64,000 bases of DNA from Candidatus Iainarchaeum sp. Lineage in GTDB: Archaea; Iainarchaeota; Iainarchaeia; Iainarchaeales; GCA-2688035. The notes beneath the pieces were generated by a model, which was given only the letters and a program-made list of their open reading frames with translations, did not search any database and was not told the DNA's origin. Every line of letters starts with the position of its first letter. The first letter of the stretch is position 1. Of the stretch, positions 3,769 to 16,114 are shown piece by piece. A program made the position numbers and the translations under genes. The DNA is taken from assembly GCA_017610175.1 (NCBI GenBank), contig JAFCCO010000005.1:1-64000 (forward strand), read 5' to 3'.

Positions 3769-3776
3769 TTTTAAAT
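3769..3776 (+). promoter_or_regulatory. Putative TATA box of the leu/ilv leader-operon
   Basis: AAGCCTTTTAAATCC; about 40 nt upstream of leader ATG 3816, consistent with a short 5' UTR. Confidence 0.55.
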
Positions 3777-3815
3777 CCCTTAAGCACTATAGATAATAGC
3801 AATACAGTGGTATTT

Positions 3816-3902
3816 ATGAAAACAGCAGGTAGTTTTGGAACAAAGTCTACGAATTACTTACTTAGCCTGCTCGTTTTGCTTCTGGTTTTGCTGTTAGGAT
3901 AA
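3816..3902 (+). CDS. Putative leucine/valine-rich leader peptide (28 aa): MKTAGSFGTKSTNYLLSLLVLLLVLLLG
   Basis: Read directly; 10 Leu + 2 Val among the last 14 residues; sits between a TATA-like box and leuA, followed by overlapping hairpins. Confidence 0.75.
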   Translation: MKTAGSFGTKSTNYLLSLLVLLLVLLLG

Positions 3903-3935
3903 GCACTTCCTAGCTAAAGCAAATTTTGGAAGTGC
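3887..3935 (+). promoter_or_regulatory. Putative attenuator: two mutually exclusive hairpins downstream of the Leu leader
   Basis: Hairpin 1: 3887-3892+3893-3899 pairs with 3918-3923+3908-3914 (13 bp, 3-nt bulge, one G-U). Hairpin 2: GCACTTCC 3903-3910 with GGAAGTGC 3928-3935 (8 bp perfect), followed by GGTTTT. They share 3908-3910. Confidence 0.65.
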
Positions 3936-3979
3936 GGTTTTAAAACTGGAGAAGTCATTAGATTCGAGGTGTTTTGGAA

Positions 3980-5497
3980 ATGAGAAAAATAAGAGTTTTT
4001 GATACAACGCTCAGAGATGGGGAGCAGAGCCCTGGTGCGACTCTTACGCATCGCGAGAAAATAATGATTGCAAGGCAGCTTGAAAAGCTTGGTGTTGATG
4101 TAATCGAGGCGGGTTTTCCTATCGCGAGCGATGACGATTTCAAGGCGGTTAAGGAGATTGCGGAAACCGTTAAGGGGCTGAGCGTGTGCGGTCTTGCCCG
4201 CGCAATGCCAAAGGACATTGACAGGGCCTGGGAGGCCATTCAGAACGCCAAAAAACCAAGGATACACACTTTTATGTCGACAAGCGACGTGCATTTAAAG
4301 CACCAATTCAAAAAAACCAGGGATGAGGCCCTTGAAATGAGTGTTGAGGCTGTAAAACTTGCCTGTTCCTACTGTAAGGATGTGGAGTTTTCGCCAATGG
4401 ATGCCACGCGCACCGACCCCAAATTCCTTTTCCAGGTGCTTGAAAAAGTGATTGAAGCCGGTGCGGGGACGGTTAACATTCCTGACACTGTTGGGTATGC
4501 CCAGCCAGTGGAATTCGGCAAGCTCATTAAGAACATTTGCGATAACGTTCCGGGCATTGAGAATGCGGTAGTTAGCGTGCACTGCCACAACGATTTGGGG
4601 CTTGCGGTCGCAAACAGCCTTGAGGCGGTGCGCAACGGCGCCGGCCAGGTTGAGTGCACTGTAAATGGCATTGGCGAGCGTGCAGGAAATGCGTCCCTTG
4701 AAGAAATCGCGATGAACCTGCATACCCGCAGTGAATTTTTTGGGGTCTGCACAAGCATTAACCTTAAGGAAATTTATCCTTCATCGCTGATGGTCAGCAA
4801 CCTTACAGGGATGGCGGTTCAGCGCAACAAGGCAATTGTTGGCAAAAACGCATTTGCGCACGAGGCCGGAATTCACCAGCACGGTGTTCTTGCAAACTCA
4901 CAAACTTATGAGATAATGGACCCTGAGATGATTGGCAATAAAAGCCAGTTTGTGCTCGGCAAGCATTCCGGCAAGCACGCAACAAAGAAGGTTCTCAAGG
5001 ACATGGGTTTTGATCTCTCAGACGACGAGCTCAAACAGGTAACCAACAGGATAAAACAGCTTGCAGACAAGCAGAAAACCGTGCTCGATGAAGACATTGT
5101 TGCAATTGCAGGAGATGTCACACAGCAGCTTAAGAAAGAGGAAAAGCGAATTGTTCTTGAGGAATTTCGCATTGAAACAGGCAACAAGGTAAAGCCCACT
5201 GCAATCCTCAAGCTTATAATCGACGGAAAGAAAGTTGAGGCAAAGGGAACAGGGGTTGGGCCTGTTGACGCAATAACCAACGCACTGCAATCAGTTTCAC
5301 CCACAAAGGTTTCGCTCCACGAATACCACCTCAACGCAATAACAGGCGGAACAGACGCACTTGCGGACGTTGAGGTAAAAATAGTCAACGGGTCGGGAAA
5401 GGTCCACAATGCAGAGGCAATCAATGAGGATGTACTAACGGCAAGCACGAACGCCATCATAAAGGGCATAAACAAGGCGCTTGCCAACAAAAAGTAG
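3980..5497 (+). CDS. leuA: 2-isopropylmalate synthase
   Basis: RVFDTTLRDGEQSPGATL; HCHNDLGLAVANSL; regulatory LeuA dimer domain at C-terminus; GAGGTG upstream of ATG 3980. Confidence 0.93.
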   Translation: MRKIRVFDTTLRDGEQSPGATLTHREKIMIARQLEKLGVDVIEAGFPIASDDDFKAVKEIAETVKGLSVCGLARAMPKDIDRAWEAIQNAKKPRIHTFMSTSDVHLKHQFKKTRDEALEMSVEAVKLACSYCKDVEFSPMDATRTDPKFLFQVLEKVIEAGAGTVNIPDTVGYAQPVEFGKLIKNICDNVPGIENAVVSVHCHNDLGLAVANSLEAVRNGAGQVECTVNGIGERAGNASLEEIAMNLHTRSEFFGVCTSINLKEIYPSSLMVSNLTGMAVQRNKAIVGKNAFAHEAGIHQHGVLANSQTYEIMDPEMIGNKSQFVLGKHSGKHATKKVLKDMGFDLSDDELKQVTNRIKQLADKQKTVLDEDIVAIAGDVTQQLKKEEKRIVLEEFRIETGNKVKPTAILKLIIDGKKVEAKGTGVGPVDAITNALQSVSPTKVSLHEYHLNAITGGTDALADVEVKIVNGSGKVHNAEAINEDVLTASTNAIIKGINKALANKK

Positions 5498-5506
5498 GTG
5501 AATGCA

Positions 5507-7204
5507 ATGCAGGGAAGTGAAGCAATAATAAAAACCCTTATTGAGGAAAAGGCGGAGCACGTGTTCGGTTTTCCGGGCGGAGCGGTAATGCCAATCTACG
5601 ACAAGTTTCTTGACTACGAAGATGAGTTAAGGCACATTCTTGTAAGGCACGAGCAGGCGGCGGCGCACGCAGCAGACGGCTATGCAAAGATTTCGGGAAA
5701 GGCAGGAGTCTGCCTTGCAACCTCCGGGCCAGGGGCAACAAACCTTGTGACCGGCATAATGACCGCTTACATGGATTCGGTTCCGCTCATTGCACTCGCC
5801 GGAAACGTTCCAACTTCGCTTCTTGGAAACGACGCTTTCCAGGAGTCCGACATGATGGGAATCACGATGCCAATTACAAAGCACAATTTCCAAATTCGCG
5901 ACCCGAACACAATCCGCTCAAAGATCAGGAAGGCATTCAAGATTGCACAGCACGGCAGGCCAGGTCCTGTCTATATTGACATTCCAAAGGACTCGCAGGT
6001 AAAGGAGGTAACAAAGGACATTAACAACGTGCTAATTGCAGGATTCAAGCCGGTTCTTAAGGGCCACCCTGTTCAGATAAAAAAGGCGGCCGAAATGATT
6101 CTCAAGGCAGAGTGCCCGGTAATTCTTGCAGGCGGCGGAATTCTTATCTCAAAGGCTTACGCTGAACTTGGCGAGCTTGCGGAGGGAATGAGCATTCCTG
6201 TAACCACCACTTTCATGGGGAAAAGCTGTTTTCCCGAAACACATCCCCTTTGCCTCGGAGTTATTGGGATGCACGGCAGAAAGGTTGCAAACTACGCAAT
6301 CGGAAATGCTGATCTAATAATCAATGTTGGCTGCAGGTTCAGTGACAGGATAACGGGTGACCTCAAGACATTTGCAAGTGGCGCAAAAATAATCCACATA
6401 GACATTGACAGCGCCGAAATAGGCAAGAACGTAAAAATCGACCTTCCGATTGTGGGTGATGCAAAGCAGGTTCTTTCCGAGCTTGTTAAGATCATAAAAT
6501 TAAAGGCCCCGAAGAGCAGGGGGTGGGCTGAAAAAATCAAGAAATTTATCAAGGACTGCGACTGCGCGATTGACGTGAAGGGAAGCCCGCTTGATCCCAG
6601 AAAAATAATGTTCGAGCTCAACAGAATTCTTGGAAAAGAGGACATTCTTTCAACCGGAACCGGGCAGCACCAGATGTTTGCCATGCACTTTGTTAAAAGG
6701 GACGTGCCGCACACGTTCATTTCAAGCGGGGGGGCGGGCACAATGGGATACGGTTTTCCCGCGGCAATTGGCGCAAAGGTTGCAAAGCCGGATGCACAGG
6801 TTTTTGACCTTGATGGGGACGGCTCTTTTGCAATGGTTATTCAGGAGCTTGCAACCTGCAAGGAAGAAAATATAAAGGTTATTCCCGTAATTATGAACAA
6901 CGCATACCTTGGAATGGTCAGGCAGTGGATGGAGCTATTCGTTGACAAAAGATACAGTGGAGTGCACCTCAAAAGGACCCCTGACTTTGCAAAGGTGGCA
7001 GAAGCCTACGGGCTTGAGGGAATAACGGTTGAGCGTGACTCAGAGCTTCGCGAGGCGTTTGAACGCGCTTACAAGGCGGACTCAACGGTCTTAATTGATG
7101 TGATTACACAGGAAGAGGCAAACATCCTCCCAATGTTTTCGGCGGGGGCAAACAATGTTGACATGTTTGGTGGATGCATTCAAAACAAGGGAGAACTGTT
7201 TTAG
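5507..7204 (+). CDS. ilvB: Acetolactate synthase large subunit
   Basis: ThDP enzyme: VFGFPGGAVMPIYD, GPGATNLVTGI, GDGSFAMVIQELAT. Confidence 0.95.
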   Translation: MQGSEAIIKTLIEEKAEHVFGFPGGAVMPIYDKFLDYEDELRHILVRHEQAAAHAADGYAKISGKAGVCLATSGPGATNLVTGIMTAYMDSVPLIALAGNVPTSLLGNDAFQESDMMGITMPITKHNFQIRDPNTIRSKIRKAFKIAQHGRPGPVYIDIPKDSQVKEVTKDINNVLIAGFKPVLKGHPVQIKKAAEMILKAECPVILAGGGILISKAYAELGELAEGMSIPVTTTFMGKSCFPETHPLCLGVIGMHGRKVANYAIGNADLIINVGCRFSDRITGDLKTFASGAKIIHIDIDSAEIGKNVKIDLPIVGDAKQVLSELVKIIKLKAPKSRGWAEKIKKFIKDCDCAIDVKGSPLDPRKIMFELNRILGKEDILSTGTGQHQMFAMHFVKRDVPHTFISSGGAGTMGYGFPAAIGAKVAKPDAQVFDLDGDGSFAMVIQELATCKEENIKVIPVIMNNAYLGMVRQWMELFVDKRYSGVHLKRTPDFAKVAEAYGLEGITVERDSELREAFERAYKADSTVLIDVITQEEANILPMFSAGANNVDMFGGCIQNKGELF

Positions 7205-7217
7205 GGAAGGGGTTTGA

Positions 7218-7730
7218 ATGGATGAATCAAGGGAAATTGGCGGAAAAACAAAGAAACACATAATCGGAATTATGGTTGACGACCACCCGGGCGTAATGTC
7301 AAAGCTTTCCTCGCTTTTCGCAAGGCGCGGATTCAACATTGACAGCATTGTTGTCGGAAAAAGCGCCCACCCAGGAATGGCACACATTGTGATAAGCGTT
7401 GTTGCCAACGACGAAATCATTGAACAGCTTGAAAAACAGGTAAACAAGCTAATTGACGTTGCAAAGATTACAGACCTTGCGCCAGCGCAAAGCGTGATAA
7501 GGGAACACTGCCTTGTGAAAGTGGCCTCAACGGAAAAATCAAGGGAGGACATAATTAACATCGCAAAAATCCACAAGGCAAAGGTCCTTGACATTAACCA
7601 CTCAAGCATAATTGTTGAAATAGTCGGCAGGCCAGCCAAAATAGAAAATTTTATTGAGCTAATGGGAAAGTACGGAATTAAGGAAGTAAGCAGAACAGGA
7701 ATTAATGCCCTGCAAAGGGGAACAAAATAA
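7218..7730 (+). CDS. ilvN: Acetolactate synthase small (regulatory) subunit
   Basis: ACT domain HIIGIMVDDHPGVMSKLSSLFARRGFNIDSI; adjacent to ilvB. Confidence 0.93.
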   Translation: MDESREIGGKTKKHIIGIMVDDHPGVMSKLSSLFARRGFNIDSIVVGKSAHPGMAHIVISVVANDEIIEQLEKQVNKLIDVAKITDLAPAQSVIREHCLVKVASTEKSREDIINIAKIHKAKVLDINHSSIIVEIVGRPAKIENFIELMGKYGIKEVSRTGINALQRGTK

Positions 7731-7795
7731 AAACAGTTATCAGGTAATTCGGTAAGAATTGCCCAACTTCAAATTGCAAACGGAGGGAGTAAAAC

Positions 7796-8779
7796 ATGAA
7801 AATATATCACGAAAACGACGCATCAATCGATGCACTTAAGGACAAAACAATTGCCATAATCGGCTACGGAAACCAGGGAAGGCCTCAGGCACTGTGCCTC
7901 AGGGATTCCGGCTTGAAAGTAATCGTCGGCTCAATAAAGGACGCATCCTTTGACAAGGCCGTTGAAGACGGTTTTGAAACATTTCCAATAGCGGAAGCCG
8001 CGGAAAAAGCGGACCTTGTCCAGATTCTTCTGCCTGACGAGTTCCAGGGAGTGGTTTACGCAAGCGAAATCGCGCCGCACATGAAGGAAGGCAAGATTCT
8101 CTGCTGCTCACACGGCTTTAGCATTGTGTTCAAGGGAATTGTGCCCCCCGAAAACGTTGACGTAATAATGGCAGCACCAAAGAGCCCGGGCAGCGAGGAA
8201 AGAAAGGAATACGTGCGCGGATTCGGAGTGCCGGGCCTCATAGCCGTTTACAAGGACGCAAGCGGAAAGGCAAGGGATTATGCACTTGCATACGCAAAAG
8301 GAATGGGCTACACAAGAGCAGGGGTAATTGAATGCACGTTTCCCCAGGAAACATACTCGGACCTGTTTGGGGAACAGACAGTTCTATGCGGCGGAGTAAC
8401 AGAGCTCATGAGAGCTGGCTTTGAAACACTCACCGAAGCAGGCTACCCGCCTGAAATCGCATACTTTGAATGCATCAACGAGCTCAAGCTCATCGTGGAC
8501 ATGATTTACGAGGGCGGATTCGAATTGATGTGGAAGCGCGTAAGCAACACCGCAGAATACGGCGGAAGGACACGCGGCCCAAAGGTAATTGGCAAGGAAT
8601 CAAAGGAAGCAATGAAGCAGCTTCTCAAAGACATTGAGTCAGGCGCTTTTGCAAAAGAGTGGGTTGACGAGGTCAAAGCAGGAATGCCAAACCTCAACAA
8701 GCTCCGCGAAGAGCAGGCAAAGGAACCGGTCGAAACAATCGGCAAGGAAATCAGAGCCCTCTTTGAAAAAAAGGAATAA
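7796..8779 (+). CDS. ilvC: Ketol-acid reductoisomerase
   Basis: [46 protein letters not shown]. Confidence 0.95.
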
Positions 8780-8786
8780 GCAAAGC

Positions 8787-10415
8787 ATGAAACCGGATGA
8801 AATAAAGCGGCTTCCGGCCGCTGAATCACTGCTTTACGCAGACGGGCTTAAGGAGAACGAGATTGGCAAACCGTTTATTGCGGTTGCCAACTCATTCAAT
8901 GAGATAACACCCGGCCACATCCACCTCAACAAGCTTGTTGAGCACGTAAAGCGCGGAATCCGGGAAGTGGGGGCAATTCCCTTCGAATTCAACACAATTG
9001 GGGTGTGCGACGGCATAGCAATGGGGCACGAAGGAATGAAGTACTCTCTTCCAAGCCGTGAAACCATTGCAGACAGCATTGAAGAAATGGTCAAAGCGCA
9101 CTCTGTGTTTGAGGGAATTGTTTTCATCGCCGCATGTGACAAGAACATTCCTGGACACCTCAAGGCAGCAGCCAGGCTCAATCTTCCATCAGTATTTGTT
9201 TCAGCAGGGCCAATGGCTCCGGGCGAATACGACGGCAAAAAAATCGGGGTAAAGGCCGCTTTTGAGGCAAAGGCACAGGTTGAACTTGGAAAGATTTCAA
9301 AGGAAGAATACAAAAAAATTGTATGCAGCGCGTGCCCGGGTGCGGGAACGTGCTCAGGGCTTTATACAGCAAACAGCATGGCTTGCGTAACCGAAGCATT
9401 AGGGCTTTCGCTCCCAATGTGCGCGACCGCAGCCGCACTCTCCGAGGACAAGAACAAAATTGCATACGAAAGCGGAAAACTCATAGTTAAACTTGTGAAG
9501 CAGGGAATTCTTGCAAGGGACATTATGACCGAGCAGGCTTTTGAAAACGCCCTCCGCCTTGACATGGCAATAGGGGCTTCCACAAACACAATGCTTCACG
9601 TGCCGGACATTGCAAAAGAGGCGGGCTTTGACTTTAGGCTTGAGCGCATTAATGAACTAAGCGAGGAAACCCCAACCCTTGTGAAGCTTGATCCTTCATC
9701 GGAATTCTTCATGTCCGACCTTCATGAGGCGGGAGGAATTCCGGCGGTAATGGCCGAACTCAAACCAAAGGGCCTTATTCAGGACACTGCAACAGTTCAA
9801 GGAAGCCTTTTTGACAGGCTTGCAAACGCTGAACTCAAGGACAATAAGGTTATTCGTGCGATTGAAAATCCTTACGACAAAAGCGGCGGAATTGCAATCC
9901 TGTACGGAAACCTTGCGGAACAAGGCTCTGTAATTAAAACAAGCGGAATCTCCCCAAAATTCCCAAAGGTTTTTGAGGGAAAAGCCGTTGCATTTGATTC
10001 AGAGGATGAGGCAAACGAGTTCATCAACTCGGGAAAGGTTGAGAAGGGCTCAGTTCTTGTAATTAGATACGAGGGGCCTGTTGGAGGCCCGGGAATGCGC
10101 GAAATGCTTTACCCAACGGCGGGAATTTCAGGCCTTGGCCTTGACACCAATGTGGCTCTGCTGACAGACGGGAGATTTTCAGGAGCAACCCACGGCGCTT
10201 CAATCGGGCACATTGCGCCTGAAGCGGCAGTTGGCGGAAACATTGCACTGGTTGAAAACGGGGACGCAATCAAAATTGATTTGGACAAGCGAAGAATAGA
10301 CCTTCTCGTTGATGAGGCGAAGCTTGCAAAAAGGCGTGAAAAATGGGGCAAGGACTTCAGGCTCAAAGAGCTTCCTGAAGGGGTTTTAAAGAATTTCCGA
10401 CAAAGATTTCTATAA
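8787..10415 (+). CDS. ilvD: Dihydroxy-acid dehydratase
   Basis: [50 protein letters not shown] 8787 preferred over longer ORF. Confidence 0.95.
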
Positions 10416-10425
10416 GGTGAATCAA

Positions 10426-11688
10426 ATGAAACAGACAATAACCGAGAAGATTCTTGCCGCACACTGTGGCAGAGACAGCGTAAGCCCAGGCGAGCTCATA
10501 GAGGCAAACGTAGACCTCTGCTTTGCAAACGATATCACAGCCCCAATTTCAATAAAGGCATTCAGGGAAGCGGGCATTAAAGAGGTCTTTGACAAGGAAA
10601 AAGTTCTCCTGATTCCCGACCATTTCACCCCAAACAAGGACATTAAGGCAGCAGAGCAGGTTAAATTGATGCGCGAGTTTGCAAAGGAGCAGGAACTTGC
10701 AAACTTCTTTGATGTGGGCAGGGTTGGAATCGAACACGTTTTCATCCACGAACAGGGTTTCTCCGTTCCAGGGCAGGTAATTGTTGGGGCGGACTCACAC
10801 ACATGCACTTACGGAGCACTCGGAGCATTCTCAACAGGAGTTGGCTCAACAGATGTTGCTGCGGCAATGGCCCTTGGAAAGCTCTGGCTTAAGGTTCCGG
10901 AGTCAATGCAGTTCAATTACACAGGAAAGCTCTCAAAATATGTTTCAGGAAAGGACCTTATTCTCTTCACCATCGGCCAGATGGGGGTGGGCGGTGCGCT
11001 CTACAATGCAATGGAGTTCAGGGGCTCCACAATCAGGTCCCTTTCAATGGACAGCAGGTTCAGCATGTGCAATATGGCAATTGAGGCCGGTGCAAAGAAC
11101 GGAATAATTGAACCGGACGGCCGCACGCTTTCATATGTTAAGCAGCACTCCAAAAAGAAGTTCAAAACCTACAAGTCTGACAAGGGCGCAAACTACAGCG
11201 ACGAGTTTTTCTGGGACGCGTCAGTCATTGAGCCACAGGTGGCGTACCCGCACCTTCCTGAGAACACAAAACCAGTTTCAGAGGCTTCAGGAATTGAAAT
11301 TCAGCAAAGTGTAATTGGAAGCTGCACAAACGGGCGAATTGAGGACATGCGCGTTGCCGCAAAAATATTCAAGGGAAAGAAGCTTGCACCCGGAACAAGG
11401 TGTGTAATCCTTCCGGGTTCACAGGAAGTTTATCTTGATTGCATAAAAAAGGGGTTTGTGGAGATATTTGTCAAGGCAGGCTGTTCCTTTTCAACCCCGA
11501 CCTGCGGGCCATGCCTTGGAGGGCACATGGGTGTTCTTGCGGCTGGAGAAAAGGCAATCAGCACCACAAACAGAAACTTTGTGGGCCGAATGGGCCACGT
11601 AAAGAGCGAAGTTTATCTCTCCAACCCGGCTGTTGCGGCAGCTTCCGCAATTGCGGGAAAGATAGTGCACCCGGAGGAAATAAAATGA
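10426..11688 (+). CDS. leuC: 3-isopropylmalate dehydratase large subunit
   Basis: Aconitase family: [47 protein letters not shown]. Confidence 0.93.
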
Positions 11689-12179
11689 AGCTCAAGGGAA
11701 AAGCATGGTCGTTTAAGGACAACATTGACACAGATGTAATTATTCCCGCAAGGCACCTGGTCACATCAGACCCTGACGAGCTTGCAGGGTATTGTATGGA
11801 GGACATAGATCCGGACTTTGCAAAGAAAATTTCCAAAGGGGACATTATTGTTGCAGGAAAGAATTTTGGATGCGGTTCAAGCAGGGAACACGCCCCTATT
11901 GCAATAAAGCACTTGGGCATTTCATGCGTTATCGCGGAATCTTTTGCAAGAATCTTCTACAGAAACAGCATAAACATGGGCCTTCCAATTTTTGAGTGTC
12001 CCGAAGCCGTTAAGAAAATAAGGGCAGGGGACAAGCTTGAGGTTGATGCCGAAACAGGGATTATCACAAACGTTTCAAAAAACGAAACTTACAAGGCACA
12101 GGCAATGCCTGAGTTCATAAGAAAAATTATAAAACTTGGCGGTCTAATGGAGTACGTAAAGCAGGAAGTGAAAAAATAA
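11685..12179 (+). CDS. leuD: 3-isopropylmalate dehydratase small subunit
   Basis: [36 protein letters not shown] 11685 overlaps leuC stop. Confidence 0.93.
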
Positions 12180-13249
12180 TGGCCAAGAAATTTAAGATAG
12201 CGGTTCTTCCGGGTGACGGAATCGGCGCAGAGATAATGCCTCCCGCAGTTGAGGTTCTCAAAAAAGTTGGCGAAATGTTTTCGGTTGAGTTTGAATTCAC
12301 CGAAGCAAAGATTGGATGGGCTGCTTACCCTGAATTTAAGACATGCCTGCCCAAAGAGACACTTGATGTTTGCAAAAACTCGGACGTAATCCTTTTTGGG
12401 GCAATTGGGGATCCAAAAGCGGACAAGCTTCCGCCGGAGGAAAGGCCTGAGCGGGCGGCGCTTCTCCCCCTTAGAAAGGAGTTTGACCTTTACGCAAACC
12501 TTCGCCCTGCGATGGTGTTCAAATCACTTGCAAATGCATCCCCGCTCAAATCCGAAATAATTGGCGAGGGCTTTGATGTGCTTGTGGTGCGCGAGCTCAC
12601 AAGCGGAATTTACTTTGGAGAACCAAAGCAGCTTTCGGAAAGTGAGGGCTTTGATACCATGCGTTACAAAAAAGAGGAAGTTGAGCGAATTGCAAAGGTT
12701 GCTTTCGAAGCCGCAATGAAGCGTTCAAAAAAAGTGCACAGCATTGACAAGTCCAACGTTCTCCAGTCAATGGTCCTTTGGAGGGAAACTGTCGGAAGCG
12801 TTGCAAAGAATTATCCTAAAGTGGAGCTTGAAAACCTTTACGTTGACAATGCGGCAATGCAGCTTGTCAAAAACCCAAAGCAGTTTGATGTGATTCTTGC
12901 GGGAAACCTGTTTGGGGACATCCTTAGCGACGAGGCCGCAATGCTCACCGGAAGCATTGGCATGCTCCCGTCGGCTTCACTCAACGAATCAGGCTTTGGC
13001 CTTTACGAGCCTGTTCACGGTTCTGCGCCCGATATTGCTGGAAAGAACATTGCAAACCCGATTGCGCAAATTCTTTCAGCCGCAATGTTATGCAAGTACT
13101 CTTTCGGCCTTAACGAGGCGCATGACGCAATCTTTAAGGCGGTTGAATCGGTTCTTGACAAGGGCATTAGAACAGTGGACATAGCTGCGGGCAATGAGTC
13201 TGTTGGAACAAAGGAAATGGGCCAGGCAATTCTCAAAGAATTAGGTTGA
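12179..13249 (+). CDS. leuB: 3-isopropylmalate dehydrogenase
   Basis: VLPGDGIGAEIMP; VRELTSGIYFG; YEPVHGSAPDIAGKNIANP. Confidence 0.94.
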   Translation: MAKKFKIAVLPGDGIGAEIMPPAVEVLKKVGEMFSVEFEFTEAKIGWAAYPEFKTCLPKETLDVCKNSDVILFGAIGDPKADKLPPEERPERAALLPLRKEFDLYANLRPAMVFKSLANASPLKSEIIGEGFDVLVVRELTSGIYFGEPKQLSESEGFDTMRYKKEEVERIAKVAFEAAMKRSKKVHSIDKSNVLQSMVLWRETVGSVAKNYPKVELENLYVDNAAMQLVKNPKQFDVILAGNLFGDILSDEAAMLTGSIGMLPSASLNESGFGLYEPVHGSAPDIAGKNIANPIAQILSAAMLCKYSFGLNEAHDAIFKAVESVLDKGIRTVDIAAGNESVGTKEMGQAILKELG

Positions 13250-15954: not shown

Positions 15955-16059
15955 ATGGAATGTGCAAACGCATTTATTGGTGCTGAAACTTTTCTTTTCA
16001 AAGTTTGCGCAGCCGTGGGCAAGTACTTTGCTTATTGGTATTTTTATTTTTTTGAGTAG
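15955..16059 (+). CDS. Putative aromatic-residue-rich leader peptide (34 aa): MECANAFIGAETFLFKVCAAVGKYFAYWYFYFFE
   Basis: Read directly; 9 of 10 residues 24-33 are Phe/Tyr/Trp; immediately precedes the aromatic biosynthesis operon and overlapping hairpins. Confidence 0.8.
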   Translation: MECANAFIGAETFLFKVCAAVGKYFAYWYFYFFE

Positions 16060-16114
16060 GCACCAGGCTACTCTCTGTTTTTAGCTTGGTTGCCAGGACT
16101 AACAAACGGAGAGT
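16060..16114 (+). promoter_or_regulatory. Putative attenuator: two mutually exclusive hairpins after the aromatic leader
   Basis: Hairpin A: GCACCAGGCTA 16060-16070 with TAGCTTGGTTGC 16082-16093 (11 bp, one bulge, one G-U). Hairpin B: 16070-16084 with 16099-16114 (ACTCTCTGTTT/AAACGGAGAGT plus TTAG/CTAA; one bulge, one G-U), with further pairing inside the loop. They share 16070 and 16082-16093. Confidence 0.7.

Follow-up and report, generated by a model that had tools for sequence, protein, structure and literature searches.

In bacteria, the leuL, ilvL, ivbL, pheL and trpL leaders each place a short open reading frame (ORF) of cognate codons before a biosynthetic operon, and the cognate residue follows the pathway. 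The codons used in attenuators are typically the less common ones, and in E. coli trpL, segment 2 starts just after the leader stop. In Actinobacteria, the LEU element sets a leucine-run ORF directly before leuA, in a compact RNA without an obvious terminator, where the leucine codons base-pair with the Shine-Dalgarno (SD) box of leuA (Seliverstov et al., 2005; PMC1262725). As for archaea, a passage in Blombach et al. (2021; PMC8448881) describes them as lacking any known attenuation or antitermination mechanism, and our search of the open-access literature, with subscription papers outside its reach, found no archaeal amino-acid leader peptide. Here we report on a 64,000-nucleotide (nt) stretch of an archaeal genome, Candidatus Iainarchaeum sp. 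(contig JAFCCO010000005.1; hereafter the window), in which a leucine-rich leader ORF precedes leuA. Judged from sequence, this leader is very probably a leucine-sensing leader-peptide attenuator that acts through the ribosome. Leader-peptide attenuation is a mechanism of a known bacterial kind, proposed here for a domain without a documented example.

Direct reading of the window matched the original prediction exactly as regards the 28-residue ORF, its Leu/Val run, the five Leu codon types in that run (TTA, CTT, CTG, CTC and TTG) and the gap to leuA. The TATA-like box was also found where it had been placed, and NCBIfam assignments bore out the claim that eight contiguous Leu/Ile/Val genes follow the leader (Table 1). 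Among the window's 1,442 short ORFs, no other has as many Leu in the last 13 residues as the leader (9, against 7 for the runner-up), while shuffled windows hold on average 0.3 ORFs with 7 Leu in that span and none with more. A composition-blind scan of the window for a TATA box, a short ORF and a post-stop hairpin placed a Phe/Tyr-rich leader, discussed below, at the top and the Leu leader in the small group behind it.

Table 1. Features of the two leader regions and the leu/ilv operon in the window (all on the forward strand)
Feature	Position	Strand	Details
TATA-like promoter box	3769..3776	+	TTTTAAAT; predicted transcription start near 3799
SD-like sequence	3806..3811	+	AGTGGT, immediately 5' of leader ATG; GTGA/GGTGA in relatives
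Leader ORF	3816..3902	+	MKTAGSFGTKSTNYLLSLLVLLLVLLLG, then stop; 28 aa; ATG 3816, TAA 3900-3902; 77 nt before leuA ATG 3980
Control codons (Leu/Val run)	3858..3896	+	residues 15-27; 10 Leu, 2 Val, 1 Ser (Ser17 the sole exception)
H1, possible competing hairpin	3893..3914	+	GTTAGGA (3893-3899)/TCCTAGC (3908-3914), across the stop codon; suggestive only
H2, post-stop hairpin	3903..3935	+	arms GCACTTCC (3903-3910)/GGAAGTGC (3928-3935); covariation P < 5e-5
Short U-tracts	3924..3941	+	in H2 loop (3924-3927) and just past H2 (3938-3941); positionally enriched across the set (P = 0.017 by rotation)
Conserved motif between H2 and leuA	3950..3961	+	AGAAGTCATTAG; also in L003, L004, L011, L012, L018
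leuA, 2-isopropylmalate synthase	3980..5497	+	first gene after leader; NCBIfam; SD-like GAGGTG at 3966-3971
ilvB, ilvN, ilvC, ilvD, leuC, leuD, leuB	5507..13249	+	remaining operon; NCBIfam
Second leader, Phe/Tyr-rich	15955..16059	+	MECANAFIGAETFLFKVCAAVGKYFAYWYFYFFE, then stop; before aromatic operon (16164 onwards)
Aromatic-leader hairpins	16060..16114	+	H2 (16060-16070/16082-16094); alternative H3 (16070-16084/16099-16114)

We collected leuA from 75 genomes of the Diapherotrites order and then from the phylum. Within the order, 18 genomes carry the leuA start on a contig (G027, whose locus is cut by a contig end, was left out), and in all 18 a Leu-run leader opens the leu/ilv unit. In 17 of them it is a short ORF that lies 5' of leuA and carries the Leu run at its C-terminal end; in the apparent exception, G023, leuA is internal and the leader, MQAGKNSPQKITFSQNKRLISSLSLLNLLLLK, opens the operon. 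A leader such as MFQKKVENMISNLKSETSLANLVLLLL or MQEGLNNQSVTSLDLSLVLSASALLL is also present in six genomes from another phylum, labeled 'Nanohalarchaeota' at NCBI, which brings the total to 24 genomes in two archaeal phyla (that of the window and 23 others). The leaders range from 18 to 36 residues and end 77-228 nt before leuA; G005, from the same family as the window genome, has an identical leader. In 20 of 23 leaders a TATA-like box lies 28-52 nt 5' of the ATG, and for these transcription is predicted from sequence to start upstream of the ORF and to include it in the operon transcript. No convincing Leu leader was seen among the readable loci of a third archaeal phylum, in which 16 of 245 genomes have leuA, at five leuA-like loci of other archaea (L019, L020, L022, L024 and L025) or before leuB-leuA in G106. 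Two loci in which leuA is internal and the operon start lies beyond the contig (G095:C43 and G097:C55) were left out.

The leuA gene is of bacterial type by NCBIfam and the genomes are metagenome assemblies, which could point to a chance ORF or to a bacterial contig contaminating archaeal bins. We give this explanation almost no credence, because shuffled upstream regions almost never match the leader's Leu content, 24 assemblies agree, and the TATA-like boxes stand at archaeal spacing. Moreover, an upstream ORF with at least six Leu in its last 13 residues occurs at only 2 of 76 bacterial leuA loci. One of these two belongs to Solirubrobacter, of Actinobacteria, where leucine leaders before leuA have already been described (PMC1262725).

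The original prediction had named conservation in related genomes as a check, and across the 24 genomes the Leu run is indeed kept as a peptide while its codons vary. The last 13 residues of the leaders are 53% Leu and 11% Val, with Ile and Phe at 2% each, so the run is not merely hydrophobic. Leu occupies codon -3 in 96% and codon -2 in 83% of leaders, the run abuts the stop codon, and only cognate residues are conserved in the leader peptides. Leu codons number 6.9 per 13 in frame 0, against 1.6 and 0.6 in frames +1 and +2. Over the last ten codons of six genomes of family f1, codon position 2 never differs, whereas position 1 does so in 49% of comparisons and position 3 in 43%; Leu/Leu pairs use differing codons in 45 of 70 cases in these genomes. 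CTT and CTC together make up 23% of leader Leu codons vs 50% in neighboring genes (Fisher P about 1e-12). The leaders avoid the Leu codons that the host genes favor, and conservation lies in the peptide rather than in the DNA.

The second leader of the window precedes an aromatic operon that extends to 25625 and comprises a transaldolase-like gene, pheA, the N and C parts of transketolase, DAHP synthase and aro genes. Phe/Tyr leaders with the same layout and a post-stop hairpin were found in ten genomes of the order (L263-L267, L271, L273 and L275-L277). The leader residues therefore follow the downstream pathway, which is a strong argument against a hydrophobic small protein. From the hydrophobic run, which in some genomes is nearly of membrane-spanning length, one could still imagine a small membrane protein or signal-like peptide with no role in leucine sensing. 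We judge it highly improbable, however, since the peptides have only 18-36 residues, conserve no others, use Leu and not Ile or Phe, pin the run to the stop and always head the leu/ilv unit, with Phe/Tyr runs in their aromatic counterpart. The parallel Phe/Tyr leader and the conservation of Leu in variable codons across 24 genomes both support the leucine-sensing leader first proposed for this locus.

In nearly all leaders a hairpin, H2, begins at the stop codon, with its 5' arm at -3 to +7 of the stop. The arms differ between families yet fit each other: none of 20,000 interfamily arm swaps did as well (P < 5e-5), and H2 was the best of the 105 window pairs tested. The mean fold z score is -1.56 after leader stops, compared with -0.10 at 12 ordinary stops of the window. 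H2 of the aromatic leaders covaries as well (P = 0.00045 over seven lineages). This structured RNA is so placed that the position of a ribosome would decide its folding. The archaeal RNA element resembles trpL in beginning just past the leader stop, as segment 2 does there, but differs from the bacterial leaders in its archaeal host and promoter, its Leu run extending up to the stop and the lack of a consistent intrinsic terminator. No Rfam family, the leader families and the T-box included, gave a match at gathering score anywhere in the window.

Our preferred wiring, which we put forward tentatively, takes H2 as the ON state and its masking as the cause of early termination. Transcription would start just 5' of the short ORF, and a ribosome would load immediately and enter a run of about 6-10 Leu codons ending at the stop. 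When charged tRNA-Leu is abundant, the ribosome would run as far as the stop; if a bacterial-type footprint is assumed, its leading edge would extend about 9 nt further and cover the 5' arm of H2. Uncharged tRNA-Leu would halt the ribosome at or before codon -3 and H2 would fold; on the same footprint, codon -3, the most conserved Leu codon, is the last position that leaves H2 whole. H2 would then be antiterminator-like and correspond to segments 2:3 in E. coli trpL. With H2 masked, an alternative fold or exposed U-rich RNA would lead archaeal RNA polymerase and aCPSF1/FttA to stop early. As the readout, either transcription would end early, perhaps on U-rich RNA and with the help of aCPSF1/FttA, or the translation of leuA would change. 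Early termination by aCPSF1/FttA is a candidate readout because, in excerpts of three accounts, it ends RNA unprotected by ribosomes and is helped by U-tracts; the same excerpts link no amino-acid-sensing leader to it (PMC8448881, PMC11616081, PMC8116511). One passage places the contact of FttA with RNA about 20-36 nt behind the 3' end at the polymerase (PMC11616081), and another proposes competition between FttA and a coupled ribosome (PMC8116511). Both would fit the preferred wiring without proving it.

The same leucine-sensing leader could be wired in the opposite direction, with H2 as an OFF hairpin, either a terminator or a pause. A ribosome on the last Leu codons would mask H2, or H1 would displace it when the ribosome is further upstream. 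Six of seven f1 leaders have H1, which shows a compensatory change in L014 and reaches P 0.016-0.03 over all families; U-runs also lie in or directly past H2 in L014, L021, L143 and L142. Yet H1 fails correction for 105 tests, most leaders have no U-run after H2, and H2 stays free with the ribosome at most of the Leu codons, so that starvation would favor the OFF hairpin. We consider this wiring somewhat unlikely. Two mutually exclusive structures may exist: H1 is a possible competitor of H2, and a third hairpin, H3, is supported in the f1 aromatic leaders only, where it is the best of 24 permutations. H3 is also visible in three Leu leaders (L011, L012 and L018).

The leader might instead act on the translation of leuA, through folds that hide or free the leuA ribosome-binding site. 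When a ribosome is set on the stop codon, the RNA fold of the window pairs part of GAGGTG, and G023 has an SD-like GGTGG within the 3' arm of H2 itself, immediately ahead of the following ATG. The distance from leader stop to leuA is variable, however, and neither the Leu run nor the H2 loop pairs with the 40 nt before leuA better than it does between unrelated genomes (P 0.13 and 0.64, respectively), so we regard this readout as unlikely. On the first of these values, base pairing between the Leu codons and that site is not supported. The locus resembles the LEU element in its layout and in a compact RNA fold that lacks an evident terminator, but whereas Leu codons pair with the SD box there, the conserved structure of the archaeal leaders is the hairpin from the stop.

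Several observations weigh against the attenuator reading and its preferred wiring. H2 is weak or oddly placed in L016, L145 and L021. A U-run of at least four directly follows H2 in 37% of leaders, where 19% is expected; at that frequency, H2 as a consistent intrinsic terminator of the classical leuL/trpL form was rejected. Across all families H3 has no support (P 0.16-0.46), for which it was rejected as a universal partner of H2, and the window's own Leu leader shows no clear H3. Finally, similar Leu codons were changed in Streptomyces and regulation was reportedly unaltered, according to a statement cited in PMC1262725; richness in Leu therefore does not guarantee that a leader works as an attenuator.

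No convincing His leader was found near hisG among 24 loci, and an initial scan around trpE yielded no clear Trp leader of the classical type. Closer reading revealed an unusual Trp mini-ORF, M..(D/S)xLW.., with a conserved CTT-TGG-C, in eight genomes (L201, L202, L209 from the window genome G000, L210, L211, L220, L222 and L223), located 5' of tRNA-Trp and, in those where it was seen, of trpE. The +1 frame from CTT-TGG-C is open for 31-37 codons and has WxW(xW) just before its stop in all eight cases, six of which have no start codon of their own in that frame. The arrangement suggests +1 frameshifting at a hungry Trp codon, followed by a run of Trp codons and then tRNA-Trp, and CTT-TGG-C can be likened to the RF2 frameshift site CUU-UGA-C; alternatively, it may be a guide RNA (C/D box). 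In L180, L181, L184, L186, L187 and L189, tRNA-Trp lies directly 5' of trpE, apparently within the trp transcription unit, and in L177, L192 and L196 the tRNA sequence seems interrupted, perhaps by an intron.

The leu/ilv loci showed further features. The motif AGAAGTC(A/T/C)TTAG is conserved about 47-60 nt past the leader stop in the window and in the five loci listed in Table 1; only in family f15 does it have a clear partner for pairing, GACTTCT in the loop of H2. In L014-L018 and L021, the leuA match covers the catalytic part only, in a frame of about 400 residues, as if without the allosteric domain, and the leader is retained. In G023 (L144, 4858-5223 of the reverse complement), a 121-residue ORF between the Leu leader and ilvE-leuA weakly resembles a winged-helix regulator, at a Pfam E value of 0.086 that is below cut-off.

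A leader system conserved in two archaeal phyla makes the attenuation gap in archaea directly testable, and the leader would be a natural substrate for testing whether aCPSF1/FttA terminates once the leading ribosome lets go. If the proposed attenuator is real, coupling between ribosome and RNA polymerase would be used for regulation in archaea. It is possible, although we would not lean on it, that the Leu, Phe/Tyr and Trp leaders form a set of switches read by aCPSF1/FttA and U-rich RNA instead of intrinsic terminators, the Trp member adding a +1 frameshift; if so, they would represent attenuation built on archaeal parts. The leaders also suggest how genomes of about 1.2 Mb, such as that containing the window (G000; 1.24 Mb in 34 contigs), may sense amino acids without a dedicated regulator.
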